From NCBI RefSeq assembly GCF_008831045.1, contig NZ_WAJS01000011.1:24407-88406 (forward strand): a stretch of DNA of 64,000 nt, given 5' to 3'. This DNA comes from Adlercreutzia muris (GTDB lineage: Bacteria > Actinomycetota > Coriobacteriia > Coriobacteriales > Eggerthellaceae). Position 1 is the stretch's first letter, and the number at the start of each line of letters is the position of its first letter. Position numbers and translations under genes: made by a program. Below are positions 1-61,296 of this stretch, one piece after another. The notes beneath the pieces are model-generated. The model saw only the letters and a program-made list of their open reading frames with translations, was not told where the DNA came from and did not search any database.

Positions 1-3000
1 GGTCGGCGCCCAGGCCCAAATCGTAGGTGAAGCGGGCGCCGTCGTCGGTGGACACGGCGTAGCCGGAGCCGTCCACCACACCGGCCAGGGCCCCGCCGTT
101 GCGGTCGGTGACCGCCTCGGGCAGGGTGAGCGTGGCGGCGTCGCCGGCGGCCACGGCCTTCTCGTAGAGGGCCGCGGCGTTGCGGTCGGCGCTGTTCTGG
201 TTGGCGTTGCCGGAGGCGGGCACGATGGCGTGGTTCGCCCGCGGCGACTCGGCGGTCACCACGTTCAGGAGCACGTCGTACTCGCCCGGGGCGTTCAGGT
301 AGCCGTCGGTGTAGATAAGGTCGGAGTCCACGGTGCAGTCGTCGCCCATACGGTACTTCGCGGCGCCGATGGTGCGCTCCCAGAAGTCGGTGTCGATGAG
401 GCGCACCCGGTAGCCGTAGATGGTCACCGAGGCGGGAATGACCGTGACCTGCACGCTCTCCTCGCCGGTATCGGGATCGGTGAAGGGAGTCTCCACCTTC
501 TGGGCCGGGTTGTAGCGGTGGCTCGGCAGGTCGGAGAACTCGTAGCGGCCGTCGGCGTCAGTGGTGGTGCCGCGGGTGCCGAGGCCCGTGGTCGGGTCGG
601 CGTCGTAGGCATCCCACGCGGCCTGGTCGGCCCAGGTGAGGTCGCGCTCCCACGCGGCGCCGTCGGCCACGGCGAAGGAGCCGTCGGCCTGTTGCACGGC
701 GGTAATGGCCCAGCGCTCCAGAGCCAGGGCGCGATCGGCCTCGCCGGGCTCGCCGGCAGCGCTGCCGTCGGCGGCCGGGCCGTCGTAGATGCCGTCGTTG
801 TCGGTGTCGTTCCAGATAAGGCCGCTGATGGTCTGGCGCGGGGCCTGGGTCTCGCCCACATCGCCGGCCTCCACGGGAACCACGGTCTCGGTGGTCACGT
901 TCGTGTCGGGGTCGGTCACCGTGGCGGTCTCGGGATCCATGATCCAGTCGTACACCTCGGCGCCCGTGCCCATGCCGGCCCCGGCGGGCAGCGCCACGAA
1001 GGCGTTGGCATTGGCGTGGGTGTACTCGCCCGCCTCGTTGGTGGTCGTATCCTGGGCGGCCCAGGCCAGGATGGTCTGGCCCTTGAAGCCGCGGGTGGTG
1101 CGGGTGGCGGCCGTGCCGTCCACGGCGGTGCCCTCGGAGGCCAGGCCGCAGGTGGCGGCGTCCAGGCGGCCGGCGATGACCATGCCGCCGGCGATGCCGG
1201 TGCGCTCGGTCACCGACAGGTCGGCAGCCACGTCGGAGTCGTCGGTCACGGAAGCCGTGCCGTTCACGCGGGACAGCTCGGCCCCGTCGCCGTTGTGGTG
1301 GTAGCGGGTGAGCACCCACTGGTTGTCGGTGCCGTCGGCGGCGTTGCCGGCCGGCTCGCGGTACAGATCGGCCAGCTCGGTGCGGTAGGCGGCCAGGTAG
1401 TACTGGTCGTCGTCGCTCACGAACACCGTGGGCAGGTTCTCGGCCAGCCACTGGCCGTCCTCGTTGGTGGTGGCCGCCAGGGCGCCCTCCACCCCGTTCA
1501 CCCTCGCCAGAGGCGTCTGGGCGGCGGCGTTGCCGTCGTAGATGATGGGCTCCACAGGCTCGCCGTCGGCGCGGGCGCCGTACTTGTTGGAGGTGTAGGT
1601 GTCGGCGCCGAAGAGGCTGTTGCGCACCCAGGCGCCCACGCAGTCGTCGCCGGGGACGAAGTCGGCGGCATCGGCGGCGGCCACGGAGGTGACGGTGCCG
1701 TCGGCGGCCACGAAGTCGGCCTCGGTGTCGGCGATGGCCTCGAAGGCGGTGCTTCCGGCCGGCGCCCAGTACCACTGGGTGAGGTAGACGGTCTGGTCGG
1801 CCAGGCCGCGCTCGCCGTCGTCCTGCACGCCGTTGTAGCCGCAGGACACGTCGTAGGTGCCGTCGGCGTTGTAGATGCCGGTGTCGTCCCACACGCGGCC
1901 CGTGAGGCTCGTGCGCGGGATCTTCACGAGGCCCGCGTGGCCGCCGCGCTGGGCGAACAGCGGGCGCGGCACGTCGTAGCGCACCCCGTTGTAGATCTGC
2001 TCGTACTGGTAGCTGGCCGCATCGCGCTCGGTGCCGGCGTCGTTGTAGCGGTTGCCGTCGGCGCCGCGGGCGGCCACGATCACATAGCCGTCGGTGCGCC
2101 AGAAGCTGGCGTTGTTCTTGTTCTCGTCGGCCTCGTCGCGGTCGTCCTTGTTGTAATTGTCCTCGGTGTTCTTGTCGTACTCGTCGAAGGTGCCCTCGCC
2201 CATCCAGGAGTTGTCGAAGTACTCGTCGACGATCTGGATGACGCGGTCGCCCGCCGGATCGGGGCGCAGGGCGTCGGAGTCGGAGCCCTCCAGGCCGGGC
2301 ACGGTGATGGCGGACATATCGCCCAGGGTCTTGTCGCCCACGTTCACGCCCACGTGCGGCGTGGTCAGGCTGAAGTCGGGGGCCACCTCGGCCAGGGTGA
2401 TGCGGTAGGAGGCCAGGTACAGCTTGTCCAGGGCCACCTCGTTGGCCTCCAGGGCGCCGGTCAGGTCGGTGTCGTTGGGCTGGAGCACGTACAGGTCGTT
2501 GGCGGCCGGCGTGCCCGGGGTGTTCTCGTCGCCCTCGGTGGCGGCGGTGAAGCTGCCGCCCAGGTACACGAAGCTCGGGAGCTGCTCGAAGGCATAGGCC
2601 CCGGCCGCGGCGTCGGTCACGGAGTCGGGACGGGAGAAGCTCGTGCGCACATCGGCCACGTCGATGGTCGAGGCGCCGGCCTCGGCAACCTCGGCGTCGT
2701 AGGCGGCCTGCTTCTCGGCGGCGGTCTTCACGTGGACCCACGCGGCCTTCACGGTCTCGTTCGGGGTCTTGTCGGGGTTGCGGGTGATGACGTTGTCGAT
2801 GCGGTCCACGGTGAAGTTCTCGGGGTCGGCGGCCAGGGCCTCGATGAGGGCCGCATCGTCCACGTAGAACCACTGGGTGATGGACAGCTTCTGGCCGGGC
2901 ACCGGCTCCTCGCCGACGTTCAGGATGCCGTCGAAGTTGTGGTCGCGCCACACCTTGCCGGTGATGGCGGTGTAGCCGTACTCGCCGAAGCCGGCGTGCA

Positions 3001-6000: not shown

Positions 6001-9000
6001 GCACCTCGTCCTGGGCCGTGATGGCGATGCCGCCGTTCTTGCCCAGGGTGCCCTCGGCGTCGGAATCCACATCGTAGGCCGCGGTCGGGTCGGAGCCGTC
6101 GGCACCGGGCAGGGTCTTGTGGTAGCGGGTGAACAGCCACTGCTCGTCGTCGGCCGTGACGGTCTGGTCGCCGGTGGTGAACAGGCGCTTGCCCACCTCC
6201 ACGCGGTAGCTGGCCAGGTAGTGGCCGCCGTCGGGGGCGGTGTAGGCCGCGGGCAGGTTGTCGAAGGTGTACACGCCGCGGGTGCTCTCGTCCACGCGGT
6301 CCACCTCCACGTCCACGGCATCGTCGCCGGTGCCCTCGGTGACGGCCTCGGTGTAGTGGCGCGCGTCGGCCGTCTTCACGGCGATGACGCCGCGGGCGCC
6401 CTCCACGTTCCACGCATCGGTGGAGCGGGGGTTCACCTGGTCCTCCTCGGCCGGCAGGCCGGTGACCGGATCGGTGGCCTGCTCGCCGGTGACCGGATCG
6501 ATGACCGGCACCTTCACGGTGTGGCTCGTCATCTTGTCGGTGCCGAAGGCGAGGTTGCGCACCCAGAAGCCAGATCCGTCGGAGGCGGGCTCGAAGTCGC
6601 CAGCCTCGAGGGCCTCGGCGGGCACGCCGGCCTCCTCGGCCAGCTCCGCCACGCGGGCGGCGTCCTCCTCGGAGAGCGTATCCTTGGCGGCCAGCTCAGC
6701 CAGCTCGGCGTTCACCGTGAAGCGGAAGGCATCGGCGGCGCCGTCGGCGGCCTGGTTGCCGTTCAGATCGGCGTAGGGCAGGTAGTACCACTGGGTCAGG
6801 TACACGGCCTGGTCGGCCAGGCCCGGCTCCCCGTCGTCCTGGATGCCGTTGTAGGCACGTTCGCGGGCCGCGGCGTCGTGGGCGTTCTCGTCGGTCTCGT
6901 AGAACGAGTCGTCCCACACCTTGCCGGAGATGCTGGAGCGCGGCACCATGACCAGGCCGGCGTCCCAGTTGTACAGACGGGCCGCGTCGCCCAGGTCGTA
7001 GACGGTGTTCACGTCGCCGAAGAGCATCTTGCCGTTGCCGTAGTCCTCCTCGGACTCGTACTCCAGCTTCTCGGCCAGGTAGGTCTTGTACTTGCCCTTG
7101 TAGGTGGCGTACTCGTCGTTCAGGGTGTTGTAGATGGCCAGGGCCTCCTCGTAGCGGGCGGTCTTGGCGTCAAAGTCGGCCTTGAGGTGGTCGTAGATGG
7201 CCTTGTAGCCGGGGAACTCCTCCTTGGAAAGCGTGTCGGTGGTCACCGTGGTGCCCTTGTCGCACAGGCCGTAGAGGTAGGTGTCGTCGCCCTCGTAGGC
7301 GGCGCAGTACACGAGCCACTCGTCCTGCTCGGTCTCGCCCTGGATGACGATGCCGTGCTTGTTATAGGGCTGGGTGAACACGTTGGTGGCCTCGGTGTTC
7401 ACCTTGTAGGTGATGAGCTCGCCGTTGGCGTCGGCATAGACGAAGCCGAGGGTCTTGCTCCACGTGGTGAGGAAGTTGTTCCAATCGGTGGACCAGGCCT
7501 TGTCGGCGGCCTCCCGGGCGCGCTTGCGCTCGTCGTCGGTCGGGTTGTTCGGGTCCACCACCTTGATGGCGTCGTAGAAGTTCTCCTCGTTGTACTTCTC
7601 GTTGGCGCGGGAGAGCTCCTCGGGCGTGGGCGGCGTCTTCGGGGCGACCGGGATCTCCTTCTTCAGATCCTGGGCGGCCTTCCACAGGTTGTTCAGGGCC
7701 TCCTCCACGGCCTCGGTGGACTCGTAGCGGTTCACGGCCTTGCCGCCCAGGGTGAGCAGGGGCAGGTACAGGCCCGTGGCGATGCCGTCCTCGTCGATCT
7801 TCTCCTGGCCGTAGACCTTGTTGTCGGAGCTCTCCAGGCCGTTGTCGGCCCAGGTGACGCCGAGCACGTTTATGGCCGCGTCGCGCGGGCCGGCCACGAT
7901 GAGGTTCACCGGGGAGCCCTCGTGCTTCAGCAGGCCGGCGACGGGCACCTGGCCGATCACCGTGCCCGGCGGCGCGCTGCCCGTGAGCTCGGTCTTGAAG
8001 ATGACGCGGCCCACGGAAAGACCGTCGGCCTCGATGGCCGCCGTGGCCTGGGCGAAGCTCTTGCCCGTCACGTAGTCGCCAGTGGCGATGGTGGGGGCCA
8101 CGCGCTCGGTCTCCTGGCCGTTCTCGTCGTAGGTCACCTTGTCGCCGTCGCGCAGCATGGAGCTCTGGTACAGCGGCAGCACCGGACGCAGGGCCTCCAG
8201 ATCGCGCTTGACCTTGTGGGCCACGGTGTTGGTCTCCACCTCGCCATCCTCGGTACCGCCGATGACGGCATGGTGCACCACGGTCTTCACAGTGCGGAAG
8301 CGGTAGGTGGCCGTCACGGTCACGGACTCGCCCGGGGCCAGCTTGATGCGGCCGGTGTAGGCGCCGGAGCCGTCCACGTCGTCAGTGCCGAAGCGCACCA
8401 CGGGGTTGCCCTCGGCATCGGTGGCGTTCATGTTCACGGGCACGCCGGCCTTGTCGCAGGCAGCGTCCACGCAGACCACGTCGGTCGCGGCCGTGAGGCC
8501 CTTGCCCGTCGGGTAGGGATCGGTGATGGTAATCTGCTGGGTGGCGTCGGTCTCGTTGCGGTACACCGTGGTGTAGGTGACCTCCACCGGGGTGTTCTCG
8601 TTCAGCTCAGCAAACGGCGCCAGCTCCGGCGAGTCGGCCAGGGGCGCGCCGGTCACGCGGTCGATGAGCGTGCCGGTGGCGGAGTGCTGGCCGATGGAGG
8701 CGAGCACGATGTAGCCGTCGGCGAAGGAGCCGGGCTCCGGCGTCCAGCCCTCGTCCCGCTGCTCGTTCAGGTAGTAGGTCAGGGTCGTGGCGTCCTCGGA
8801 GTTGGTGCCATCGGCGCTCTGGGTGCCGTTGAAGCCCTCGCCGGGCTCCTCCGCCTCGCCGTCGCCCTCATCCACGGAGCCGGGGGCGAAGGGCGCGTCG
8901 GCCACGGCCACGTAGATGTCGTCGCCGGCGGCGTTGCCGTTGGCCACCTTCACGTAGCGGGTCACGGCCGGGTCGGTGCCGGCGGGCATGGGCTCGAAGA

Positions 9001-12000
9001 CCGAGCCGTTCTTGATGTAGTAGGCGGTGCCGTCGGTGTAGCCGGAGGCCACGTCGTTGGCCTGACGCAGCACGCCAGTGGCCACGGGCTTGGTCATGAG
9101 GTCGGAGTCGGAGTCCACCGACTGGCCGAGGTTGCCCGTGTTGTCGGTCATGAAGGCGTTGCGCACGGTGATGGCGTAGTCCTCATCGAGCGCGTTCAGA
9201 TCCTCCTGATCGATGCGCAGGCGGTAGCCGGCCAGACGCTTGGTCTTGTAGTCGTTGTCCAGGTTGCGGGTGTCGCGCGGGTCAACCACGTAGGAGGACA
9301 CGTCGCGGAACAGGTAGGTGCCCGCCGCGGCCGCGTCGCCCGTGTAGGCCTCGCGCAGCTCATCGCCGGGGTACAGCTGCCAGCGGAACTCGCCCTCATC
9401 GGTCATGGTCCACTCCATGACCGGGGTCTTCTCGCCGGTGTCGGGGTCGATCACCGGCACGCCGGCGGCGTTGGTCTTCCACAGCGGGTTGCCGTTGGAA
9501 TCCTTCTTCTGGACGTACTCCATGCGGGTCTCGGTCGGGCCGTAGTACCAGGTTTCCAGCTTCACCTTCACGCCGCCGTTATCGCGGCCCTGGCCCACGC
9601 CCTCCTCGTCGGCCTGCTGCACGCCGTCGTAGTTGGCATCGCTCCACACGTTGTTGCCCAAATAGCCCTTGGTGCCGTCCACGTAGCCCAAAGCCAGCTT
9701 GTCCTGGCGCTCGTAGCCGAGCCACTTGTTGGCGGGATCCTGGTAGATCACCTTGCCGTCCGCGTCCAGCGGCAGGGCGGCCGTGAGCGGGTAGGTGCGG
9801 GCGGAGCCGGACACGTAGCGCAGGTCGTTGTCGGCCACGAGCACGTCGGAGTCGTGGTAGTAGAAGCCGTCGCGCTGGTAGGCCGTCGCATCGTTGCTCC
9901 AGGTGTTCAGCGTGGGCTTGATGAGGCGGTTGGCCACGGTCTCGGAGGTCTTGATGATGTAGGTCTTGCCGGCCTTCAGGCGGAAGCGGAAGAAGCCGGT
10001 GTCGTCGGTCACGATGGTGGCGGCGTTGCCGTCGGCATCGGTGGCCAGAGTGGACGAGATGGACCCCTTCGCCTTGTCGTACTCGTAGACGTTCACGCGG
10101 ATGCCCTCGAGGCGGCGCTCGGGCTTGGCATCGGCTCCGGCCATCTGCTCTTCAGTGGTGCCGGTGCCCACGCCCACGGAATCCAGCAGGGAGTTGATCT
10201 GGATGTCCTCCTCCGGCGTGCCGTCGGCCAGGATATCGTCGCGGTAGGTGACGCCCTCGAAGGTGATGCCCTGGGCGATGCCGAGCTTCATGGAGGTGGC
10301 CTTCTTGTCGTAGGCCTCGTGCACGGCCTTGTCGTAAGCGTCGGTGCCGGCGTTGGCCTGATCGTAGGCCACGGGCTCCACCTCGATGGTGGAGGTGGTC
10401 ACCACAAGCGCCGCGTCCACGCCGTTGGCATGGTCGGCCTCGATGCGCTCCACGGTGAGGTCCTTGTCCTCGGCGTTGGCGTAGATGTCCGTCTCGCCGA
10501 TGGACTTCTGGGTGGGTGAGAAGTTGTAGTACTCCTCGGGGAAGGTGTAGCGCAGGCGGTACTTGCCCGGCTCCAGGTTACTGAACACGTAGTAGCCCGG
10601 GTTGCCGTAGTAGTCGGTCTCGGTGTAGTAGACGCAGGGCGCGCCCGAGTCGGCGGAGATGTAGTTGCCCCAGGCGTCGAACTCCGGCTTGCCGGTGCGC
10701 TCGTCGCAGCGGACCCAGCGGTCCTGGCGGCCGGTCTTGTCGTTGTTCACGAGCACCGACACCTCGCCGTCGCGGTTGACAGGGTTGCCGTACTCGTTCA
10801 GGAGCTCCACCTTGACGTCGTTGATGCCCGGGTCTTCCTTCTCCAGGTCGTAGTCCAGATCCTTCAGGCGGCTCTGGTCGCGGTCGTTGGCATCCTTGTA
10901 GGTGGTGTTGTCGAAGCGCTTGAGCATCTGCTTCTCGTAGTACACCGGGTTGCCGTCCTTGTCGACCACCTGGTTGCCGTCGCGGTCGATGGCCGGCTCG
11001 CGCACGGTCTCGTACTCGGGCTTGCCGGTAACCGGGTCCACCACCACGCCGCGCAGCAGCTTGCGGCCGTTGAGCGAGGTCTGGTAGGCGGAATTCAGCA
11101 CGTTGCCGTCGGCATCCTTCTCCGCCTCCTTGCCGTTCATATCCAGCACGTCGTCCTCGGGGGTGCCGGACCAGTCGGAGTCGAGCCACACGTAGTCGCC
11201 GATGTAGCCGCGGTTGTCCGGGGCGTCCACGAAGGTACCGGCGCGCACGTCCTCCACGTGGTAGGCGCCGGAGATGTCGCCGGAGTCGTTGATGTTCACG
11301 CGGCAGTAGAAGGTGTTCCACTGCACGGCGGAGCGCAGCTCGGCGGCGCGGGCACGACGCTTGTTGTAGAGGGCCTTCTCGGCCTCGGTGTACTTGTCGT
11401 ACTCCTCCTGCTTCACCTCGGCCTGCATGTCAACGGCCGGGTCGCCCGTCTTGGTGCCCAGGAACTTGGGCAGGTTCAGCGGGGCCTTCAGGTCGTAGAC
11501 GAGGCGCAGGTAGCCCTTGCGCGGGATGAAGGTGTCGATCTTCGGCTGGGCCCAGATGGCTACCAGGCCCCGGGTCAGCTCCTCCTTCTCCTCGGGGTAC
11601 TCCTCCACGTACTCCTTCAGGTCGGCCAGCTTCACGAGCTTGTAGCGGCGCTTCATGGTGTCGGCGTCGGTGATGAGGTTGCCGGTCACTTCGTCGTACT
11701 CGCCGAGGCGCACCTTCTCGAACTCGTAGTAGGAGCTGTCAGTCCACTGCTCCAGGTCGTCGGGGTCCTTGCCGTCCTCGAAGGAGCCGTAGTTCGGCCC
11801 GTAGACGACCTTGTCGCCGTACATGTACATCCAGAACAGGTCGGAGGGATCGGCTAGGCTGATGCGGCCCGTGGCCGGATCCTCCTCGTAGGGGCCGACC
11901 CAGATGTCCATGTCCACGCCGTCGGTGAGGGTGATGCCGTCGGCGGGCATGGTGGAGTCGGCGGCGGAGAACCGCTTCACCTTGATGGAGTCCAGGTCCT

Positions 12001-15000
12001 TCAGCCAGCCGGACCACTGGGAGCCGCGGCTGATGGGCTCGGCGTTGTTGTTCGTCCAGATCTGGTAGTCGCCCTCGAACGGCAGGATGTCGTAGAGTGC
12101 GATGTTGTTGAAGTTGCGGGCCTTCGACTCGTCGGCCTCGGGGTTCACCGCACTGGTGTAGTAGCTGTAGGTGGTGCCCTCGGGCACAGCGGCCGCGCCG
12201 TTGGAGGCGTAGGTGGCCAAGTCCTCCATCTGGGTGGAGGCCGTCTTGGTGTTGGACAGGTTCTGCTCGCCGGTGAACTCCAGGGCCTTCAGCTGCATCA
12301 TGACCATGGACTGCGAGGTCTGGCCGTCCAGGTTCACGTCGCGGGTATCGGACACCAGGCCGCGAGTGGAGCCGTCGTTATCGGAGGTGGCCGGCGTGTA
12401 GGGCATGAACGAGCCGGGCTTGTAGCCGTAGCCGGAGGTGGTCAGCAAGTCTTCCGACAGCAAGTCGGAGGACTCCTTCTGCACCGGCATGATGAGCTCG
12501 ATGACGATGCCCTGGCCCGGGGACAGGATGCCGCGGTCGTACTCGGTGACCTGGGTCACGTTGCCGTTCTCGTCCTCCACGTCCTTGATGGACTTCTGGC
12601 CGCTGAAGCGCCAGTTGAACATCTTGCGGTTGAAGTTGGAGCCCGCGTCCACGCCGGCGGCCTTGTCGGCCACGAGGAAGGCCGAGCCCTTGCTGTTGAT
12701 GGGGCCGGGGTCGTTCATGCGCGGCGCCGAGGAGGAGTTGGAGCGCACCACGTCGCCCACTTCGAGGTAGTCGGTCATGTCGGCCACGTAGTAGGTCCAG
12801 ATGGGCTGCTTCGCGTCCAGGTTGGGATGGGGCTTGTTGCCCACCTTGGTGGACACGTAGTCCCAGTCGAAGTAGCTGTAGACCGGGTTGGGCACGGTCT
12901 CGGTGGTGGTAGTGTTGTCGGGGTTGGTCACCGTCTTGGTGGTGTACAGGTCGTCGTAGGCCACGTACTGCAGCTTGTCGTCGGTCATGTCCTGGGAGGC
13001 GCCGAAGCCCTCCACATAGGGCAGGATCTGGGAGATCTGCGGGTTGGCGCAGTAGTCCTGCTCGTAGCCCTTGTAGTTCAGGGCGGCCATCTGCTCGTCG
13101 GAGAGGTTGGACAGGATGATCTTGTAGCGCATCATGCGCGAGGAGCCCTTGTCGATGGTGGAGGCGCCGGTGACCCACTTGTAGCCGGTGGTGCCGGAGC
13201 CGGAGAAGTAGCCCTGGATGATCTCGAGGGCCAGCACCGGCGACTCGGGCGTGCGGATGAAGCCGGCGCGGCTGCGCTCGGTCTCCACGCTCTTGGTGTC
13301 GTCGTAGCGCGGCACCGCCGAGACGAAGTGGTTCACGTGCACCGACGGGTCGGCCTCGGCCGAGGGGGCCTCGTTGTCGGGCGGGTTCTGGGAGGCCTGG
13401 CCCACGGTGGGCGTGTTCAGAAGCGACGTGGCGAAGTCCACCATGGGGGCGTTGTCGGTGATGCCGGAGTGCAGGGCCACGGTGGTGTCCGGGTAGTAGT
13501 TGCCCGCCGCGTCCAGGATCTGCACCTGGCCGTGGTTGTTCTTCTTGTAGCCCCAGCCGGCGTTCAGGCGCAGCGGGTCGAACTCGTCGGCCTCCTGCTT
13601 GCCGGCGGTGACGACCTCCTTGCCGTTCTGGTCGTAGAGCTTCTCGTCGGAATCGGGCACGGCGTCCACGTCGAGGCGGAAGCCGTGGGGCACGGCCACC
13701 TCGTGGGACAGGCGGTCGTCGTCGACGCGCGGGGTGATGGCGCGGCCCCTCTCGTCGGTGGTGGGCACGGCCTTCACCACCCAGCGGATCTGACGCACCT
13801 GGCAGCCCTCGTACTTGTCGAGGAAGCTGTCGTCGATGGTGACGTTCTCCTTGTCGGAGATGGCGTAGCCGCCCGGCTCGCCGATCTGGATCCAGCGCTG
13901 CTCGTCGGCGGTGTTGTAGTCGGTGGAGTCGCCGAACACCTCGTCGATCTCGTCCTCGCCGTACCAGTAGTCGCGGTCGGCATCGCTGCCGGGCAGGGCG
14001 AAGTTCTCATGGTCGGTGTAGGTGGGGCCGTTCTGCTCGTTGTAGGCGTTCACGCACTCGGCACGGTCGGTGGACACGATGCGGGCGAACATGAACAGGC
14101 GCAGCTGGCTCTCGGTCTCAGCGGCCTCGTTGGCGGGCAGGGCGCCCGCCTCGTTGGCGGCCAAAGGCGTGCCCTTATTATCGCCGGTGTCGGTGTAGAG
14201 GGCCCCGGGGACCTCCCACACGCCCGTGGACACGCGCTCGAACACCGAGCTCAGGCGACCCACGGCGTAGGCAGTGGACTCGAAGGGCGCGTTGTTCACG
14301 GTCATGGCGTTGTCGTTGGCCGTGGCGCCGGCAGTGGCCCAGAAGGGCACCTGCCAATCCACCACGAAGCTGTTCACGGCGCCGCCGGTGTTCACGGCCT
14401 GGGTCAGGTAGAACCCGTTGGAGCCGCGCAGCTGCACGTCCTGGCCGGTGTAGACGTTCATGTCGGAGTTGTAGATGAGGCTGCGCAGCTTCTCGGTGTC
14501 GGAGCGCACCGACACGCTGGGCTTGCGCACGTGGAACCAACCGGAGGTGGCGGTCACGTACAGGTCGTCGAAGTCCTTGTCGCGGTCGTAGTTGATATTC
14601 TCGTACTGGTTGTCCTCGGCCTTCTTGCCGGCGCGGAAGAAGCGGTTCACCGACTGGCCGTGGAACGACGTGCCGATGAGGGTCTTGATCTGGTCGTCCT
14701 CAAGCTTGGGCTTGGTGGCCGCCGAGCCGCCGGCGCTGCCGGGATCGATGGGGTTGCCGTTCTCGTCCTTGCCCAGACCGGTGTTCTCGCTGCCACCGGT
14801 ACCATCGAACTTGTCATCATAGATATGATCCCAGGCGCCGTCCTCCGGGTCGTCGGACAGCCAGTTCAGCTTGGTCTCGTGGGCCGTGGCGTAGAACTGG
14901 GAGTCGTCGCCGTCCCAGGAGGCCACGGTCTCCATCTGCTTCTTGAAGCTGACCAGGTTGCCGTCCTCGTAGAGGCTGTCGTCCATGGCCGACTCCACGT

Positions 15001-18000
15001 CGCCCAGGTTGTCCAGGCGGGTCTTCACCTTCACGGTGATGGCGTCGCCGTAGCCCAGGTAGCCGTCGGCGTGGGCGCCGGCGTAGAAGGCGTTCAGCAA
15101 GCTGTCGAACTCGGCGAACTCGCTGTCGGTGGCGTCGTCGGGGGCGGCCAGCTCGAACACGACCACCTCGCGATCGTGGGCGTGGGCCTTCGGCGTGGTC
15201 AGCGCGCCCACGCCCTGGTTCTCCTCGGACTCGCCGGCCAGGCGGTCGTGGACGAGGTTGCGGCTCGCCAGGGTGTCGGTCGGGTCGTCCAGGTCGGCCT
15301 TGCCGTAGTGGGCGTTGTCGGCGCCGCCGCGGCCGGCCGTGGGACCGGTCGTGGCGAAGGTGTCGTCACCGTAGTTGGGCTGGTAGGTCACCTTCACGGT
15401 CCAGCCCTCGGCCAAAAGCTGCTTGGGAGTCAGCCGCTCGATGCGCATGACGCCCTCGCCCAGGGCCTTGTCGGCCCAGGTCTTGGCCACGAGCTTCTCG
15501 CCCGCGGCGTTGGCCACGTACTCGCCGGCCTTGGTGTCGGCCTCGGTCTTGGGCACCAGGGTGCCGGTGCCGTCGTCGACCATGGCCGGAGTGCCGTCGG
15601 CGGCCCGCACGGTCTCGCCGGCCGCGGTGTCGGGCTTGGTCTTGGGGGCGTTGTCCTTGTCGTTGTTCTCGGCCACGGTCACCCAGCGCTCGATCTTGTG
15701 GGCGGCGGCGTCCACCACGTAGTCGCCGGCGGCCGGGTCGGCCACCTCGGCGTGGCGGTCGCGGTAGGTGCGCTCCACGTAGAAGGCGTACTCGTCGTCC
15801 TCGTAGTCGCCGATCCACTGGTAGTTGCTGTCGGTGGAGGTGGTGCCGTCCCAGCCGGCCAGCTCCTTGTCGTCGGTGAGCATGCGGTCGTCGTAGAAGG
15901 TCACCTGGCTCGGCAGGTGCAGGGCGTACACGAGCTTGGCGTGCTTCAGGTTGCCTTGGGCCTCCACGATGTCGGTGTAGTCCTCAGGCTCCAGCTTGTC
16001 CGCGGAGTTGGTGATGGTGGCTGCGAACCAGGGGTGCTCGTTGTACTGCCAGGCGTCGTTCTCGCCCGAGGGCAAGAACAGGGTGTCGTGCTCGATCCAG
16101 TTGTTGTCCATGCCGAAGGACTCCAGGAAGGCCGGATCGTACTGGATCTCGTTGTGGTGGAAGTACGGGTCGTTGTCGCCCGTGGCCACCCAGGCCAGGG
16201 TACGGCCGTCCACGCGGTAGTTGTTGAAGGTGTAGGGGATGATCTCCCACACCTCCGGGTCGTAGGTGCCCAGGTTCGGGGTGCCGTCGGCGTTGTAGTC
16301 CACGGGCGTGGACACATCGCTCGTCAGGATGTCGGTGCCCTTCTCGCGCAGCATCCACTCGCCCGCCTCGTTGGTCTTGTAGGGAATGCCCGGATCCTTC
16401 AGCGGGATGTGGAAGATCACGTTGCGCGTCTGGGTGGTGCGGATGTCGTCCACGGTCTCGTTGCGGCTGTACTCGAACTCGTCGTAGGCGTCGGGGGCCT
16501 TCGGCGGCTCCTCGTCCTTCACGCGGATGATCTCCACGGGCAGATAGATCGAGGGGCCCTCGTTGGAATCGGACGCCGGGGACTTCACCTCGATGTAGAG
16601 CTGGTTGGCCTCGGCCTCCATGTAGTCGCCGAGCTTGTCGGTGCCGGGCACCAGGTCGCGGCGGAACGACTTCTCGGTGACCACCACGCCGTCGCGCACG
16701 ACGTTCCACGTGCCCTCGGTGCCCTCGGTGCCGTCGGTGCTGCTCGGATCGGGGTCGCTGAAGGTGTAGAAGGTCTCCCCCACGGCCGTGAAACGGCCCT
16801 CGTCGGCGGTGATGGTCGCCCCGTCGGGGGCCTTCACCTGGGCCACGTAGTGGGCGTAGCGCTCCTTCACGGGGTTCTTGTCCGCATCCACGAGCGGCTT
16901 GCCGGTGCTGTCCAGCTTGTTCTTCTCCACCTCGGTGTAGAGGTAGTAGTTCTCGCCGATCTTGACCAGGCGGCCGAGGCCGGCGGTGGTGTAGACGTAC
17001 TTGGTACGCGGATCCACGTTCTTCTTGAAGATGGTGGCCTTTGTGTAGTCGGTCTCGGCGGTGCCGGAGCCCGTGTGCTTGTACAGCTGCGGGGCGCTCG
17101 GGCCGGTGTACTGGTCGAGGTTGGTGGAGTTCAAGGTCACGGCATCGTAGCTGACCCGGGTGATGAACTCGGGCACCTCGGGCTTCTCCGGGTCGGTCGG
17201 CTTGCCGTCGCCCGTGCCGCCGTCGCCAGAGCCGTCGCCAGAGCCGTCGCCAGAGCCGTCGCCCGTGCCGTCGCCCTTGTCGCCGTCGCCCTTGTCGCCG
17301 TCCTCGCCCTCGGTGGGCGGTGTGTAGTCGGGGTTGGGCACCTGGGTCTCGGTGCGCACGTAGAAGGTGAGGTCGTCCAGCGGGTGCTCCACGAGGGCGC
17401 CCGGGGAGTCCTTATCGCCTTCCAGGGTGTACACGTAGTCGTCGAAGAAGCCCACTTCCAGGGCACGCAGCTTGGCGTTCACGTAGGTGACCTGGCCGCG
17501 CACGATCTGCTTCACGAAGATGTCGGGAGCCGCGTCGCTCGCGTAGAAGGCCAGCTGGGTGGCCGAGGACAGGTCCTTCTTCTCGTAGGTGCCCTTGGCG
17601 TCGTTGTAGGTGTAGAAGGTGGCGCCCAGAGCACTCTGCTCCGGCACCGCTCCCAGGCTGTAGTCGAAGTAGCTGTAGGGGTCCACCACCTCGCCGGTCG
17701 CCGGGGCCTTGTGGGCCACGCGCACGGAGACGAAGGCGTCGCCCTCGCCCACGAACAGCGGGGTGCCCGCGTCGGCCAGGCTGCCCAGGACGTACTTGTC
17801 CCGCGGCACGGCGGTGTACACTTCCTCGCGCTTGTAGACCGTGTCGGCGGACGGGTCGTAGTCGGTGGCATCGGCCACGGCCACGTAGATGAACTGGCCC
17901 GGGTTGGCTGTATCGGGGCGCTTGATGTACTTCGTGCCGTCGTAGCCGGCCTCGGCCTCGCTGTAGACGTACTCGCGGGTGTAGAAGGTCGTGCCCGCGG

Positions 18001-36000: not shown

Positions 36001-39000
36001 AGTACATGGTGGAGGCCATGCGGTTGTCGTAGCTGGTGTTCACGGTGCCGCCGGCCACGGCCGTAGGCGTGCCGTGGGTGCGCACGTCGCCGTAGATGCG
36101 GGCCGTGAGCGTGGTGTTGCTGCCCGCCTTGGCCGGGGTCAGGCCGTCGGCCGGGTACTCCTCGTACAGCTCGGCGGCCATGGAGTTGTACAGCAGGCGC
36201 ACGTTGGCGATGACCTCGTAGTCGAAGGCGCCATCCGCATCCTCGCGCAGCTTGATGGAGGCGCCGGCGTCCTTCAGGGCCGCAAGGCCGGCCTCGGTCA
36301 GGGGCAGGTGCGCGATGGCCTCGTCCACCGAGGCGCCGTCGGTGCCGGCGGCCGTGGTGAAGTCGATGGCGGTACCGCCGTTCTTGACCAGCAGTTCGAT
36401 GGTGGCGTCGTCCAGGGTGACCGTGGCCACGGGCGCCGTTACGGTCTTGGAGCCGTCGGAGAGGCGGGTGACCTCCACCTCGCCGGTGGCGGCGTTCACC
36501 GAGCGGCGGTACTTCTGGCCGTCGGTCCCGGTGAAGTCCTCGGAGGAGGCGTGGGGCACCACCGTGGAACAGCCGTAGAGCCACAGCTTGCTCACCGTGC
36601 CGGCGCGGTTGGTCCACTTGGTGCTTGTCACCGTGGTGTCGGCCGGCAGCTTGGTGCGGGTGGCGTCGCCGTCGCGGTAGCGGTAGTAGCCGTCGATCTG
36701 CAACTCGTCGGCGATGAAGCCGCGGGCCTGCTCCACGATCTCGTTCGTGGCCCGCTGGTAGGTGCCGTTGGCGTCCTTGGTCACCTTCATCATGGACACG
36801 CCGTCGATGGCCAGGTCCAGGTATCCGTTCTCGGCCGTGGACTTCGACTTGTTGGTGAGGATGTACTCGTACCAGGCGTCCTCGCGCGGATTATCGCTCG
36901 TCTTATCGGGGGCGGCCAGGGTGTCGGTGAAGCGCGGGGTGGCGTGGTCCTGGCCCACCTTCCAGCCCTCTCCTTCCCCGTTGCCGAAGTCGAGGTAGCT
37001 GAAGTCGCCCTCGCCCCAGCGGTAGGGCACATTGGTGATGGGGCGGTACAGGGTGCCGCCGATGACCTGGCTGTCCACCTTGTTGCCGGCGGCGTCCAGC
37101 GTGTAGGTGAGCGGGCGGTGGGTGGTCTGGTCCACCTCGATGTTGCCCTCGCCGGTCTTGCCGCCGGTCCAGTTGAAGTAGGTCTGGATCTCCGGCTCGG
37201 CCGTCAGGGGGTTCATCTTGGCATAGTCGCCGTCGATGGTGCGGGTGTCCTTGTTGGCGTTCCAGCTCTCGGTCTTGTACTCGGTGGAGAACTGGCCGTC
37301 CAGGCTCATGACCGTGGCGCGGGTGGGCACGCCGTGCATCTCGATGACGGCGGCGTCGGCGGCCGTGGGATCGGCCTGAGTCACCTTGGCGGCGAAGCCG
37401 GGCAGGTGGAAGGTGACGCGGGTCACGTACAGCTCGTCTTTGCACGCGGTATGGTTCGGGTTGGCGGCATCGTCGTTGTGGCCGATGCCGTTTTTGGCCG
37501 TGCAGTCGTCGGCGTGGGCAAGCCAGGCCTCGCTCGGAATGGAGACGACCCAGTTGCCCGCGGCGTCGCGGGTCACGTAGTCGGCCAGGGCCAGGGGCTG
37601 GTACTTCGCCGTGCCGTCGGCGCGGGTGAACACCTTCTCGCCGGTGGGGTTGCCGTCGCCATCGGTGTAGGAGGCCGTGGTGTCGGCCGCGCCGCCCATC
37701 TGGTGGATGGGAAGGCTGGGCACGGTGGGCACCGTGATGGTCTCGGTGGCGAAGGAGCCGTCGCCCTGCATACGGTTCACGCTCGTGGCGCGCGAGAAGG
37801 TGGTGTCGGCACGGCCCACGGCGTAGATGTCCACCGTGTAGCCGGCGAGCATCGCCTTCACATCGCTCTCGCCCATCGCCTTCAGGCCCGCCAGGTCGGC
37901 CTCGGGGGCGATGAAGTCGCTCTGATGCTCGAAGTCGCCCTCGCCGGCGCGGGCCGCCGCGGCCTTCGCATCGGCCATGGGGCCGGCCAGGATGGCGGCC
38001 AGGGCCGGGCCGTTCACGTACAGCGTCTTGGCATCGAAGCCGCGCCACTGGCCGTCCACCAGCTCGCCGTAGATGGCATGGTTGCCGGACGGATCACCGC
38101 CGTCGTAGTTGGCCACGCCGCCCACCACGTTGCCCGTGGAGCCCGTGGTGCCGAAGCTGGCGCCCTTGTCGTCGCCAGCGGCCACATAGCCGGTGCCCAA
38201 GGTCACGCGGGCGGAGTCCAGGGCGTAGTTGGAGTTGTTAGTCAGCGGGAAGCGCCAGCCGGAGTTCATGGAGCCCATGAGGGTGTCGATGGGCGTGTTC
38301 GGCGTCGCGGTGTCCGACCACTCCATGTTGGCGGTGACATCGCCGGCCTTGTCGGCGTACAGGAAGGTGTAGGAGTCAATGCGCGGCTTGATGGGGTCCA
38401 CCTCGGCCACCAGGGTGGCGGCGTCGATGCGGTCCATGCCGTTGGAGCGGTCGTAGGCCGCGATGTACCCGTCGTAGCGGTTGCTGCCCAGGGCCTTGCG
38501 AGCGATGGCCGCCTCGCCGAATTTATCGGCCGTCTTCTCCTGGAGGATGCTGCCGCCGGCGATCTCGTCGCTCCACTGGCCGTACATGTCAGCTGTGTGA
38601 TCCCAGGTGCCGGCGCTCTGGAAGGCACCGGCCAGGGTGCCGGTGGCCGCGCCGTCCAGCAGCGTGTTGTCGAGCACCGTGGCGCTGTTGGCGTCGTAGT
38701 CGGTGTTGAACACCGACTCCAGCTTCACGTTCTTGTCCACCACGTCGGTGCGGCCGAGCACATCGATGGCCGCGTTGGCGTCCTCGCGCACACCCGCATT
38801 GAAGTGGGCCACGTCCACGCGCAGGTTGTGGAAATAGCCGTCGTTCCACAGGGAGGCGGGCATGACCAGGTTGCCGTCGGTATCGTAGGAGGCGCCGCGG
38901 GCAACAGCCGTATCCAGGGTAAAGGTATAGGTGATGCTCACCGCCCCTGCGGTGGTCTCGTCCTTGACCCATGTGGTGCCGTCGGTACGGGTGGTCGTCG

Positions 39001-48000: not shown

Positions 48001-51000
48001 TGCCCACGGTGAAGGAGGCGGGCTCCATCTTCGACATGGAGTTGTTGCTCACCTGGAAGCGCCAGCCCGACCCGGTGCGGGACAGGATGGGCTGCTTGTT
48101 CACATCGTTGGGGCCGATGGCCGACTTCTCGTCGTAGAGCTTCGCGGCCATGGACACGGCCGTAGCGCTCACCTGGGGCGTCGGCGAGAGGGCCGAGGTG
48201 AAGGTGGCCTGGGAGCGATCGGAGACCTCCACCGAGGAGGCGTACTTCTGGGCCGCCTGGTTCCAGGTGCGCTTGCCGTACTGCACCTCCACCGCGTTGC
48301 GGTAGTCGGCCAAGGGCAGCGTCATGGTGCCGGTGACGCGCACGGTCACGGGCAGCACGATGTTGGCCGCCACGGGAGATTCCATGACCATGCGGATGCC
48401 GCCGGTGAAGTTCTTCAGGTCGGTCTTGTCCGTGACGGACAGATCGGTGAGCCCGGGGATGGGGCTGATCTGGCGAGCGGCCAGCATAGACGCGATGGAG
48501 GTGGCCTTGTCCTCGCCGCCGAGGCGGTAGATGTGGCGGTAGCGGGTAACCGGCTCGCCCTCCTCGTCGGTGCCGGCGTCGTAGGACTCGGTACGCACGT
48601 ATTCGGGGGTGCCGATGTTCACCCAGTAGTAGTCGTCCTCCTCGTTGGCGCTCTCGTCGCCGGGGTCCTTCTCGGCGGGCACGGCCACCTCGAACTGCAC
48701 GACAGCGCTGTTGCCCCAGTTCGTGTTGTCGAAGCCGTCCAGGAAGTGGCTCTCGTCGGTATCGAAGTAGCGGGAGAGCGGCTCCATGTCGCTATGGTAG
48801 TCGTTGTCGCCGGTGCCCATGGTGCGGGCCGAGTCGATCTCGAACTCCAGGTTGTAGAGGCGGAAGTAGTCTGGCAAGGTGTCCATGACGGCCGGGCCGT
48901 GGGGCTTGCCGGCATCCTCAGGACGCTCAGCGCCGCCGATGCTGCCCACGTTCTCGCCGTAGAGGGGCATGTTGCCCTGGGAGGTGAAGTTGCCGATCTC
49001 GTAGGTGACCGGGTAGCCCAGGTAGCTGTACTTGGTGGAGAGCACCTTCTCGGCCTGCGGGCGCACGGAGGGATTGGCGGTAGAGCCGGTGTACTTGTTC
49101 ACCGCCAGCTTCTCGCCGGTCAGGCTCGCCTCGGGAATGCCGAAGGGGTAGGCGAACTTCGACACGGCGTCGGACCAGGAGTAGTCGCGGCTCGGCGCAT
49201 CCACGCCGCTTCCCAAGTGGCCGAAGTAGATGGTGGTCTTGGGGCCGAAGTCCACATAGTGGCCGCGGCCCATGCCGCCATCGGTCTCGGGGATGTTGGT
49301 GGTGTAGGGCACGGCCACGATGAAGGAGTACTGGCCGCGGGCCCCCTCCTTCTCCGGAACGCGGCTGTTCGGGTACAGCAGGCCCCCGTCGGCATCGATG
49401 ACTGTGAAGTTCACGTAGCCCGGCTGGTCGTTCTGGCGATAGGGAATGGAGTGCGTGGTCACCACGGGGTTGTCGTCGTCATCGAAGGTGCCGTCGATGT
49501 TGTACTCGTCGTCGCGGCTGTCGTCGATCTCGTAGCGCGAGGTCGTGACGCCCTCGCTGTTCACCTCGGACTTCCACGTCTTCAGACGCTCGGCGGCACG
49601 GGTCATGATCTGGTCCAAGTTGCTGAACAGCGTCTTATCCAGATCCTCGTAGTCCTGCTCCAGCCAGTCGGTGGTGTTGTAGATGAGCACGCCGCCCTTG
49701 TTCGGCACGCCGACGTACTGGAGGTTCTGGGTATCCCGCGGGCTCGTGAGCGGCTGCGCTGCCCGGGCCAGGGAGGGATCCTTGTCCTTCTCCGAGATGA
49801 GCTCGTTGGGATACAGCGTGTTGAACACCGCGCCGTCGGGGCGCTTGCTCGTGGCGGGGTCGTAGAGCCACTGCATGTGGTCCCGCTTCGTCAGGCCGGT
49901 GTTGTTGTTGTGCTCGGTGTTGTGCACGCGGATGAAGTACTCCAAGGCGTCGATCTCGGCGGTGCCCGTGGAGGTGTTGGTGGTGGTCACCTTGTACACC
50001 ATGTAGTTGTAGCGGTCGTAGAGCACGTTGTTGGAGATGGGCTCGTAGGTGGTCTCCCACGTGAGGTTCGTCTTCAACAGGTTGATCTTGCGCACGGTAC
50101 CGCCGTAGCCCACGCCCATCTGGGCGGTGAAGGTGCCGAACTTGCCGTTCTTCGGGTCGGTTCCCGGCGGGTAGAAGTACTTCTCGCCGGAGGGCTGCAC
50201 GTCGGTGAACACGTGGGCGCGACCGCCGTACTCGATGGTGCCGCCGGCGTTCTCGGGAATGTCGCCGATCATGTTCACGTTCACGTTGGGGGCGCGGGAG
50301 AGGTGGCCGCCCACGGGGAGCTTCTGGTCGTAGCCGGTGGGGTTGTACACGTTGTTCTCGCCGTGCCACACGAAGATGAGCTCTCCGGTGAAGCCGTAGC
50401 TGAAGTTCAGGCCTTCCAGCTGCGGGTAGTCCTTGATGATGTCGTTCAGGTCATCCTGGGCCAGGGTGGCGATGTACTTGTCGAGGCAGACGCGCACGTC
50501 CTTGCCGCCGTCGGTGGTGGCGCCGGGCACGCGCAGATACACCGACCAGTTGTTCAGCATGGAGGTGCGGTTCGTGCCGAAGTCCACGGAGATGAAGGGG
50601 TAGTTGGTCTTGTCGGCGGGGTTGCCGTCCTTGTCGTAGCCGCCGCGGGACCAGGTGCCGTCGTCGTTCTTGTCGCCGCGCCAGTCGGTGTAGTTGTAGG
50701 TGGACATAAGGCCGCCGGCCTCGTTCTTGATGAGGTAGGGCACGCGCAGCTCGAACTCGGTGCCCATCTCCTGGTAGCCCTCGGCATCCTTCTGGTAGTT
50801 GTAGTCCTTGAGCTTCCAGTAGTTCTGCTCGTCGGCCGACAGCGTGGAGATGTCCTCGGGGAAGGTGGCGTCCGAGCGCAGGTAGGTGCGCTTGTCCACG
50901 GTCTCGGCACTCGCCACGGCCTCGGCCGCCGACGCGAACTTGGTGGCAGCCGTGGTGCTCGGCGTGTAGACGAGGTTGTTGTTGTCGTCGTATTCGTAGG

Positions 51001-54000
51001 TGCCGTAGTAGCTCGGGCCGTAGGCGCTCCAGCCTCCCATGTAGCCGGTCTGGCCGGAGAACTGGCAGGACAAGGTCAGCTTCGGATGGTTCTTGTCGTT
51101 GATGAGATAGGTGTCGGCGCCGGTCTTCTCGTCCTTGCCGAGCGGGGTGCCCATGTCCTGGCACACGAGATTCGGGTTGAAGTTCGAGTTGCCGAGCTGG
51201 CCGGCGGTGTTCGGGTTGGGCGCGATAGCCAGCGGGGTCACGCCGAAATCCACGAGGGACATGCCCAGAAGCGCCATGTAGATCTCCAGAAGATCGTAGT
51301 CGCCCAGAGCCCCGTCGGCCACGGTCAGCTCGCCGCGGGCCGCCCGATCCAGGGCATCCATGAGCTCGTCCAGGGAGTGGATGCCGGCGGCATCAAGCAG
51401 CTTGGTCATCTCGTCGATGACATCCTGGTCGAACTCGCTGTACTCGGGGCCGACCGCCATGGCGTCGTCCTCAACGGGTTCCTCGGCGACCGGCTCCTCA
51501 TCGGCTTTGGTGCCCTCGTCGCCCTCGGCTGGCTCGCCCTCGCCCTCGGCCTCGGCTGGCTCTTCGGCATCGGTATCGCCATCGGGCTCGGTGGGCTCGG
51601 GCTCGGCCGGCTCGGGCTCGGCCGGCTTCGGGAACACTGCGTCTGCGGTGCCCAGCGACAGGATGGCGCAGGACTCCTCGTCGGCCTCCATGGCCTCCGC
51701 GTCGCCATCGGCCTCAGCCACGGCCTCCTCCTGAATCGCCTTACTATATAGGTAGGACCACAAGGTGAGTTTCGGGGTCTCCGCCTCGTAGGCGCTGCCG
51801 TCCTCGGTGAGGGTCAGGGCGCTGGCGGCATAGGGCACGGCCACGTAGAGCACGCGAGTGCCCGAGGCCTCGCCGGTCTCCTCGTCGCGGGAGAGCGTGG
51901 CATCGCCGGGCAGCTCGGCATCCTCGGGGGCCGGCACGGTCCCGGGTTCCACTTCGTCGGCCGGATCGTCGTCGATGGCCATGAGGTTCTCGAAGCTGAT
52001 GTCGGCCACGCCTTCGGCCACCTTCTGCACCGGAGCGGCCTCCACCTCGGCTGCGGCCAGGGTCGCGGGGTCGGCCGGATCGATGGAAGCCAACGCCTCG
52101 GCGGTGAGGTTGGTGGCGTCGAAGGCCACGATGGCGTCGGCGGAAAGGGCGCCGGTGCCCTTGGCGTCCACGGGCATGTCGGACACGCGCAGGGCGTGGC
52201 CGCGCTCGAGCAGCGCGCCCTCGGCGGCGGTGATGTTCACGAGGAAGGCGGCCCAGCCGGTCTCACCGGCGAGCACCGGATCGCCCTGGGTGGCCACGGC
52301 CGCGCCCACGGTGGCCAGAGGGGCCACGTTGGAGAGCACCACCGAGGCAGCCTCGGCGTTCTCAGCGCGATAGAGAATGGAGTCGGCCGGCTCGACGGGC
52401 TCGTCATCGGCAGCGGCCTCAGCGGAGTCGTCGCCCTCGGCGGCGCCGGCGGCCGCAGCATCGGCAGCCTCCTGCTCGGTCGCAGGGTCGGCGGCGGTGT
52501 AGGAGCACACCACGTAGCCGGCGTGGACGGTCACGGCCTCGGCGGCCGGCACGTTCTGGGTGAGCGATGCCGTCAACGAAGGCAGCGGAGTGCCGGCCGG
52601 CAGTTGACCACGGGTCTCGCGCTCGGTGATGCCGTGCTCGTCCTGCACGCCGTCGTAGCGCAGCACGATGGTGCCGGACAGGCCCGCGGCCAGATCCTCG
52701 GCAGTGCGCTTCTGGTACTGGCCCATGTGTTCGGTGTACACCGACCAGCCCACGGGCAGCTCGCCGGCCAGCACGGCGCGCATATCGTCGGCCGCGCCGC
52801 CGCGGGCCTTCCACTCCTCCTCGGAGTTGGTGCGCCCGTAGGTGCCGTCGGCGTTCTTATAGAGATAGGGAGCGGCGAAGGTGAGCACCACAGCATCGTC
52901 GCTCTCGGAGCCGCCGAGGTAGCCGCCCGCCAGGCTCACGGCCAAGTTGCCGAGAGTGGGGGCCAGCGTCAAGCCGGAGCCGGACACATGGAAGGCATTG
53001 TCGGAAGCGCGCAGGCCGCCGGTCACATCAAGGCCGTAGGTGAAGCGCTCGGCCAGAGCGGCCTTAAGCTCCTCCTCGGTGGAAGTGGCGGCGTTCAGCA
53101 GCTTGTCCGCCTTCGTCTGCTCGGCTTCCTCGGTCAGGGAGGGCATCACCTTGTCGGCATCGAGCAGATCATTAGGCAGATATGCCTGCATATCTGCCTC
53201 GCTGACAGTACTGTCAGCGACCGCGTCGTCCTCGGTGCCTTCGCCGTCCTCGCCGTCCTCGCCCTCCGCGTCAGCCTCGTCGGCACTCTCGTCGGAGGCC
53301 TCGTCAGTCCCCTCATCGGCCTGGTCGTCGACCCCATCGTCGGCCCCATCGTCGGCCGCCTCGTCCTCCGCAGCTGGCGCCGTGGGCACCGGCTCGTCGC
53401 CGACGAAGATGGTGCGGGCCTCGGCAATGGACACGGAATTCCAGCTGGTCAGCACCAGCAGCACGGCCAAGGTGCAGGCCAGGACCTTGCCCGAGGGGGT
53501 CAGCTGGCGCGGCGCGTTGCGGCTCACGATGCCGTCGCCATTGAAGTCCACCGGAGCCGGCAGGGTCCCGTCGAACCCGCCCTTGGCCTCGGCATCTGCG
53601 GCAACGCCACCTGCAACGGCATTTCCCTCCTGGGAGCCGGCGCCCTTGGCGGCGATGGCGCGGGAGAAGGCGCCCTTGCCGGTAAAACGGCCCGTATCCG
53701 CCGCGACCGAGGCCTCGGCCTCGACGGCCTCGACGGCCTCGACGGCCTCGACGGCCTCGACGACCTCGGCGGCTGCGGCAACGGCCTCGGCCTCCGTCGC
53801 GTCCTGGACGTCTGTCGCGTCCAGGACGTCCTCGACAGTGGGGGACTCGGCCGCGATAACCCCAGCAGTCTCCGCGGTCTCGGCAGCCCCGTCAGCCTCA
53901 GTGACCTCCGCAGTCTCCGCAACCTCGACAGCCCCGGCGGTCTCCGCAGCCTCGTCAGCTTTTCGCTGGGAGCGCAGGGTCCTCAGGACGGCGAATACGC

Positions 54001-57665: not shown

Positions 57666-57715
57666 CGCCGGCTCTTTCTTTTTCAACTTTTTGGCTGTCA
57701 AGCCTTTAATGGTAA

Positions 57716-60925: not shown

Positions 60926-61111
60926 CTTACTTCTCCTTAAGCTGTGCACGCGTGCGTGCGGCTTACCTTTCCGCCCGAACCGGTGACAGGCCTCGCAGCA
61001 CCCGCGAAACGGCGCAACGCCACAGGCTGCCGCCCCATGGCGCCGCGAGCCGCCCGGGTGCCGGGGCGCTTGCCGCACCGACCCTGACGCGCTCATAAAT
61101 GAACTGCCCTG

Positions 61112-61117
61112 ATTATA
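61112..61117 (-). promoter_or_regulatory. Candidate -10 element of the ppdK promoter
   Basis: A perfect TATAAT on the minus strand lies in otherwise GC-rich DNA about 190 nt upstream of GTG 60925. No good -35 is seen at 16-18 nt, so an activator or a longer leader function is possible. Confidence 0.45.
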
Positions 61118-61296
61118 GGCCATTTCACGGCTCCGGGTATCGCCAAGCCCCATCCAGCTGCCGCAGTACCGCAAAATCTCCCCAGCGGCGATCCCCCGCT
61201 CCCGCAGCAACCATGGCGGGCGCGGCATCCGGGGGCGGCGAGGCCGTGGCTCCGACGAGCGTTGCGGTCAGCGAAACGGACGATCCGCGGCGTCGG

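Follow-up and report, generated by a model that had tools for sequence, protein, structure and literature searches.

A giant gene of Adlercreutzia muris predicted to encode a sortase-anchored surface protein with a long and nearly repeat-free core

Introduction

The closest described counterparts of the gene reported here are AEQU_0093 and AEQU_1251 of Adlercreutzia equolifaciens DSM 19450 (74,766 and 74,247 nt), both presented as LPXTG 'giant genes' coding for putative surface proteins (Toh et al. 2013, PMC3778203). In DSM 18785 their homologues measure 37,689 and 61,890 bp according to a 2021 report (PMC8142583), and the related strain 68-1-3 is described in a 2015 note as having no giant genes. 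The 2013 note offers no architecture, and the literature that we searched, with subscription papers and preprints lying outside it, yielded no architectural or comparative study of the giant genes of Adlercreutzia or the Eggerthellaceae.

Giant ORFs of tens of thousands of codons with a proposed surface role are also found in Chlorobium. For the Omnitrophota, one paper describes a giant ORF of 39,678 aa with 42 predicted TM helices in Velamenicoccus archaeovorus, and most giant ORFs of the Velamenicoccia as poorly conserved (PMC10066038). The TIE adhesin of Mobiluncus mulieris is described as a protein of 7,651 residues whose 51 Ig-like domains have ester or isopeptide bonds and whose tip bears a thioester (PMC10619420).

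The window analysed here is a stretch of 64,000 nucleotides (contig C11, positions 24407-88406 of 88,406 bases) from a 94-contig draft genome of 2.77 Mb (G000) belonging to Adlercreutzia, in the Eggerthellaceae; a first-pass annotation of the window had already recognised a Coriobacteriia-like genome. It contains most of a giant gene, counted from the 5' end, hereafter g1, which has a paralogue, g2, in the same genome. Compared with AEQU_0093 and AEQU_1251 through their published description, g1 is from another species but shares the genus, the size, the C-terminal LPXTG and the acidic, Cys-poor composition. Like these giant LPXTG genes, it is an ORF of tens of kb in Adlercreutzia with an LPXTG signal and a composition rich in D, E, T, S and N, and direct homologues of g1 are present in A. 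equolifaciens DFI.6.87. The first-pass annotation regarded a giant protein in such a genome as a remarkable surface structure; it is not without precedent there, given the two LPXTG genes of ~74 kb known from A. equolifaciens since 2013.

Staphylococcal SdrD and other MSCRAMMs resemble g1 in their SdrD_B-type stalk units, in the sortase anchor and, as far as a structure model suggests, in an N-terminal beta-sandwich. However, g1 is some twenty times longer than SdrD, and the long SD repeat region of the Sdr-Clf proteins is absent from it, its longest SD run being 4 residues. The TIE adhesin is a giant many-domain surface adhesin of an actinomycete that grows by domain duplication, as is predicted for g1; it has about one third of the length of g1, which instead combines a large, nearly non-repetitive core with a SdrD_B-like stalk. 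The giant ORFs of Omnitrophota are similar in that each is one frame of tens of thousands of codons with a proposed surface role, whereas the g1 family is conserved in its order and has one signal-like and one anchor segment. What is new here is the family-wide architecture, the conserved core, the likely old duplication into A- and B-type genes and the relatives of 30,000-35,000 codons.

Extent and coding evidence of the giant gene

In the window, ATG 54217 opens a minus-strand frame that continues without a stop as far as base 2 (18,072 codons). Reading the contig to the left of the window, where the end of the frame had been left unknown in the first-pass annotation, showed that the last codon ends at C11:4548 and that a stop comes next. 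The full frame (C11:78623-4548) comprises 24,692 codons, or 74,079 nt including the stop, with 0 N and no internal stop. The single ORF of at least 18,019 codons claimed earlier is therefore real and longer than was stated, reaching 24,639 codons when counted from ATG 54058, the start given at that time. This ATG is codon 54 of the frame opening at ATG 54217, from which all codon numbers are counted here, and we prefer it as the start of g1 because four orthologues (G002, G005, G007b and G008) begin at the equivalent site, all with MSNER. Upstream of that start the four carry GGAGAGAGAACGAG or a similar stretch, and G012 and G007a are unlike them in this region. The predicted protein is then most likely of 24,639 residues and 2.66 MDa, with a computed pI of 4.37. 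Its composition (D 9.6, E 6.1, T 9.2, S 5.1, N 5.2, K 3.9, R 4.0 and C 0.4%) appears by eye, and relative to itself only, rich in D, E, T, S and N and poor in K, R and C. At 15-20 residues per second, its synthesis would take 20-27 minutes.

The chance of finding no stop across 24,692 codons at the base composition of g1 is ~10^-228 when bases are treated as independent. GC at codon positions 1, 2 and 3 is 0.623, 0.458 and 0.938, and along the gene all 123 windows of 200 codons have a GC3 that lies more than 0.2 above GC2. Antisense frames of up to 5,096 codons accompany the whole of g1 on the plus strand; the one translation inspected was rich in Gly, Ala, Val and His. These frames are probably a by-product of the biased GC3, and gene-calling programs could be misled by them.

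Export signal, wall anchor and sortases

The export signal was judged from hydropathy and a motif. With 12- and 15-residue windows it ranks among the two most hydrophobic segments of g1, and no internal segment matches the two terminal ones; with 19-residue windows it peaks at 1.79 (cut-off 1.8) and internal peaks reach 1.72, the value found at codon 981. The PRQ motif precedes the signal in eight of the 11 A-type proteins searched (A-type being the longer frames of the family, see below). Ahead of the signal segment, a 9-base tandem repeat of 6.4 copies (window 53716-53773) encodes a Glu-Ala-Val run, in which copy changes would preserve the reading frame.

The C-terminus of g1, LPQTGDELMPWLFGLTLLGAAALLLVLISRRKEEDEEEEGEEE, consists of LPQTG, a hydrophobic stretch and RRK, and matches the PF00746 anchor at C11:4572-4679 with 28.4 bits (cut-off 20), which answers the earlier question of whether an LPXTG tail lies left of the window. 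LPxTG occurs once in g1. An LPxT[GS] end is present in 10 of the 11 A-type proteins searched, the eleventh ending in LPKLGD. The genome has two sortase genes above the cut-off and a third below it, all away from the g1 locus. An apparent export signal, an LPXTG-hydrophobic-basic tail and a genomic sortase are thus found together, as in sortase-anchored proteins of Gram-positive bacteria, and we strongly infer from the sequence that the product is joined to the wall by sortase. The secreted, multi-domain character proposed in the first-pass annotation is supported.

Domain architecture

The layout of g1 was drawn from profiles of 200-residue windows, first of ten and then of thirteen proteins. 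From the N-terminus, a single-copy region is followed by a first repeat array (array 1), a core, a stalk and the anchor (Table 1).

Table 1. Features of the giant gene and of its upstream neighbours, in window coordinates
Feature	Position	Strand	Remarks
Giant ORF, in-window part	2..54058	-	favoured start ATG 54058; continues left of window to C11:4548
Signal-peptide-like segment, codons 226-270	53408..53542	-	hydropathy and preceding SRNAPRQL motif; N-region ~180 residues
Single-copy N-terminal region, codons 271-1900, predicted to lie distally	48518..53407	-	1-2 profile matches per window within g1
Predicted Ig/cohesin/MSCRAMM-like beta-sandwich, codons 634-865	51623..52318	-	structure model
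Array 1, codons 1901-5750, ~nine units of 335-640 residues	36968..48517	-	without Pfam or NCBIfam match
Core, codons ~5751-14700, nearly non-repetitive	10118..36967	-	order kept in A- and B-type proteins
PASTA-like cluster in core, codons ~7167-7540	31598..32719	-	PF03793, 29.7 bits (cut-off 23.2); profile self-matches
Stalk, codons 14701-18072, first third of ~27 SdrD_B-like units	2..10117	-	PF17210; remainder left of window, to codon ~24,530
Second PASTA domain, codons 15383-15442	7892..8071	-	PF03793, 32.6 bits
223-codon open frame directly upstream of giant gene	54918..55586	-	C-terminal half conserved, same place, four relatives
ParA/MinD-like ATPase gene	55582..56340	-	syntenic neighbour
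Open frame between ParA-like and dikinase-like genes	56469..57701	-	47-70% identity in four relatives
Pyruvate phosphate dikinase-like gene	58211..61228	-	syntenic neighbour

The beta-sandwich model has a pLDDT of 66; its match to known folds is of middling quality, and folds that are unrelated to each other tie in Z. In array 1 the unit borders were set by eye; the new repeat family announced in the first-pass annotation corresponds to this array, and the PASTA-like and SdrD_B-like domains named there both score above the Pfam cut-offs.

The core of ~8,900 residues had been overlooked. An all-against-all profile comparison within it placed six of 990 pairs above 50%, four of them in or beside the PASTA cluster (~6,930-7,540), one between 12,000 and 12,400, and one between 10,600 and 10,800 that is an edge match joining neighbouring windows; control pairs inside the arrays passed in five of five cases (67-99.9%). 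More than a third of g1 is thus nearly free of repeats detectable with shallow profiles of 200-residue windows in 200-residue steps, a search that may miss short, straddling or very old repeats. To our knowledge, other giant proteins of bacteria are largely made of repeats, and a nearly repeat-free third is unusual. When array 1 and the stalk were compared with the core, the best of 135 profile pairs reached a probability of 18%, so that this comparison neither shows nor excludes a shared origin of core and arrays. A search of solved structures with alignments of the core, the N-terminal region and array 1 gave a best E of 0.24, and an AF2 model of a core piece (8 rows) was set aside at a pLDDT of 35.7.

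PF17210 (SdrD_B, cut-off 29.7) matches the stalk with 35 bits in the window and with 65.7 and 89.1 bits further on. The border between core and stalk is approximate, since one SdrD_B match already lies at codons ~14,532-14,588. Motifs resembling calcium-binding loops number 13 in the whole stalk, where shuffling predicts 0.15, and none were found in the other three regions. Over the whole of g1, Pfam recognised PASTA, SdrD_B, the anchor and, below its cut-off, CarboxypepD_reg, leaving more than half of the length without a match; new folds may therefore lie in this part of the protein. In NCBIfam, searched with codons 1-14,800 and 19,542-24,541 (about four-fifths of g1), the only match was that of a PASTA kinase model to codons 7167-7338, below its cut-off.

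Two other protein classes were considered and rejected. An NRPS/PKS type of enzyme megasynthase would require Pfam matches that are absent over the whole of g1, and a type I secreted RTX adhesin is contradicted by a single GGxGxD in 24,692 residues and by the absence of such a Pfam match. Separately, two clusters at codons ~23,255-23,408 and 24,017-24,124 contain 35 of the 108 cysteines of the giant protein, in CxxC and DxDGxCDxC patterns that are possibly metal-binding.

Relatives and evolution

Codons 1001-1900, used as a query against 138 Eggerthellaceae genomes, matched 19 of them, from six of 48 genera; completeness is at least 90% and contamination no higher than 5% in 16 of these. The giant gene is dispensable, given that the other 119 family genomes have no match to this query, including three of the same genus (G001, a single contig at 99% completeness, G004 at 85% and G006 at 79%). 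With core codons 10,915-11,614 as the query against 396 genomes of the class, matches were again obtained in 19, all Eggerthellaceae, two of which (G130 and G136) are marginal. Protein-database matches were pieces of 624-1,607 residues, the length limits of the search having excluded anything longer.

Sorted by frame length alone, and with some frames possibly cut by contig ends, the relatives comprise 17 A-type frames of 18,070-34,927 codons in 13 genomes and 21 B-type frames of 8,056-13,433 codons, plus four shorter pieces. Both types occur together in 11 of the 13 A-type genomes; no B-type frame was found in G159 and G160. The latter consists of one 2.26-Mb contig, ~7% of which is made up of two frames, of 30,639 and 22,301 codons; the longer one (G160:C1:102353-194269) has a signal-like segment and an LPQTS anchor. 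The longest frame observed in the family, G159a (C39:9969-114749), has 34,927 codons; its signal-peptide part is out of frame, and the gene may be decayed or mis-sequenced at its start. The paralogue g2, of 12,636 codons, has its own signal-like segment and LPQTG tail and aligns with g1 in colinear pieces, mostly at ~25-45% identity.

The order of the core is well conserved. For fourteen landmarks, hand-picked from windows of good conservation, the order is identical in all 13 proteins examined (11 A-type and two B-type), ten of which had entered the profiles. At a finer scale, with the best matches of single windows outside the arrays, the steps in order were 71 of 79 in g2, 76 of 88 in G002b, 91 of 99 in G024, 93 of 98 in G007a, 102 of 104 in both G005 and G012, 103 of 104 in G002 and 104 of 104 in both G008 and G007b. 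The arrays, on the other hand, differ in length between species, and g1 has about nine array 1 units and ~27 stalk units versus about one and about ten in the B-type. The published sizes of the DSM 18785 homologues fit the variation in length across the family.

Over 23,788 codons aligned with the gene of A. caecimuris B7 (G002), identity is 70.9%. When g1 is divided into windows of 600 codons, all 41 that hold sufficient data have a dN/dS ratio between 0.33 and 0.83 (the short last window was omitted); these are rough values, since dS is probably underestimated by a simple method at such a biased GC3. Purifying selection thus acts along g1, with dN/dS moderately below 1. A tree built from a single block of the core (21 rows; midpoint root, several inner forks unresolved and a long G030B branch) separates the A- and B-types with 100/100 support; each of the two clades holds several genera, so that the duplication that produced them is likely older than these genera.

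Proposed function

We consider it reasonably probable, from the sequence features described, that g1 is a single gene whose product is exported by Sec, joined to the wall by sortase through LPQTG and projects from the cell as a single adhesin of great length. Export by Sec and covalent anchoring would follow the established biology of sortase substrates. The stalk would be oriented towards the wall and the N-terminus outwards, the ~27 acidic SdrD_B-like units being probably stiffened by calcium, as their motifs and family suggest; beyond it would come the ~8,900-residue core and then the ~nine repeats of the uncharacterised array 1 family. The N-terminal region with its modelled Ig-like beta-sandwich would probably bind a partner, whether mucus, the host or another microbe, although the adhesive tip is a weaker inference than the anchor. 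The reach of the protein would likely be altered by the gain or loss of whole in-frame units in both arrays while the core is retained.

In favour of the adhesin are the complete ORF with signals at both ends, the recurrence of these signals among A-type relatives, the sortases, the colinear paralogue, the conserved order, the dN/dS values, the SdrD_B, PASTA and anchor domains, the stalk motifs, the acidic and Cys-poor composition and the modelled beta-sandwich. Against it, no ligand-binding signature was recognised in g1, the fold match at the tip is middling, dN/dS stays no more than moderately below 1, G159a lacks its signal part in frame, and the giant gene is patchy across the family; functions other than adhesion are possible, since more than half of its length has no Pfam match. 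Taking ~200 domains of ~120 residues, each 4-4.5 nm long, we estimate an extended reach of ~0.8-1 micrometre, so that the first-pass annotation, which suggested a possible length of micrometres, overstates what a folded chain would reach.

A protein as large as this probes how far translation, export and folding can be pushed in a bacterium. Here the order is conserved over most of the length, in a family of gut bacteria with cultured members and with A- and B-types side by side in 11 genomes, and the purpose of a 2.7-MDa bacterial protein is directly testable because short and long versions co-occur in this conserved, partly cultured family. We raise only tentatively the idea of single-molecule surface organelles, in which the domain order itself would be the function, with binding, sensing or force-bearing modules held at set distances from the wall: an ordered, nearly repeat-free chain of ~8,900 residues that underwent duplication ahead of the split of several Eggerthellaceae genera and is carried on stalks whose length is tuned by evolution. 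In relatives, such organelles would attain 30,000-35,000 codons and 7% of a chromosome.

Other explanations could account for part of these data. The anchored protein could form a surface coat, thick and acidic, that protects the cell from phages, predators, antibodies or bile and has a tip that binds nothing specific; a strongly acidic product of pI 4.37 and 2.66 MDa and the variable array length among species would suit such a role, but we hold it to be unlikely, as mere shielding would not call for a nearly non-repetitive core whose order is preserved between genera and also in the paralogue. It is more improbable still that the chain is cut into several pieces, or that extra products start inside the gene, so that the mature structure would be an assembly and not one fibre. 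Very long chains are exposed to proteases, and some linkers look cleavable, for example the Asp/Gly-rich stretch near codon 12,310. However, the internal segments are less hydrophobic than the termini with 12- and 15-residue windows (codon 981 comes near the signal with 19), g1 has its single LPxTG, and one open frame with a terminal anchor is seen in 10 of 11 cases, A-type relatives and g1 taken together. Finally, an assembly or annotation artefact, a chance frame or a decayed gene, for which one could invoke the 94-contig draft and the G159a frame lacking an in-frame signal peptide, was rejected as exceedingly improbable in view of the stop statistics, the coding GC3 throughout, purifying selection in every window tested and the same architecture and conserved order in genomes assembled independently, among them contigs of 1.28 Mb (G007) and 2.9 Mb (G002) and the single-contig G160.

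Neighbourhood of the locus

The upstream neighbours of g1 (Table 1) have the same arrangement beside an A-type gene in four of the five loci with enough flank (G002, G005, G007b and G008), a count that leaves out G012 and G024, whose flanks are too short, as well as G159 and G160. At the fifth, the second A copy of G007, the 13 kb of upstream flank gave no match to these neighbours. Also in the window, a plus-strand open frame of 344 codons (62131-63162) matches nothing in Pfam; three other genomes have relatives of it close to the giant gene (43-46% identity), and another, 36% identical, lies ~4 kb from g2 on contig C2. Downstream of g1, C11:1-4317 on the minus strand encodes a further protein that looks secreted; it is at least 1,439 residues long and is cut by the contig end.
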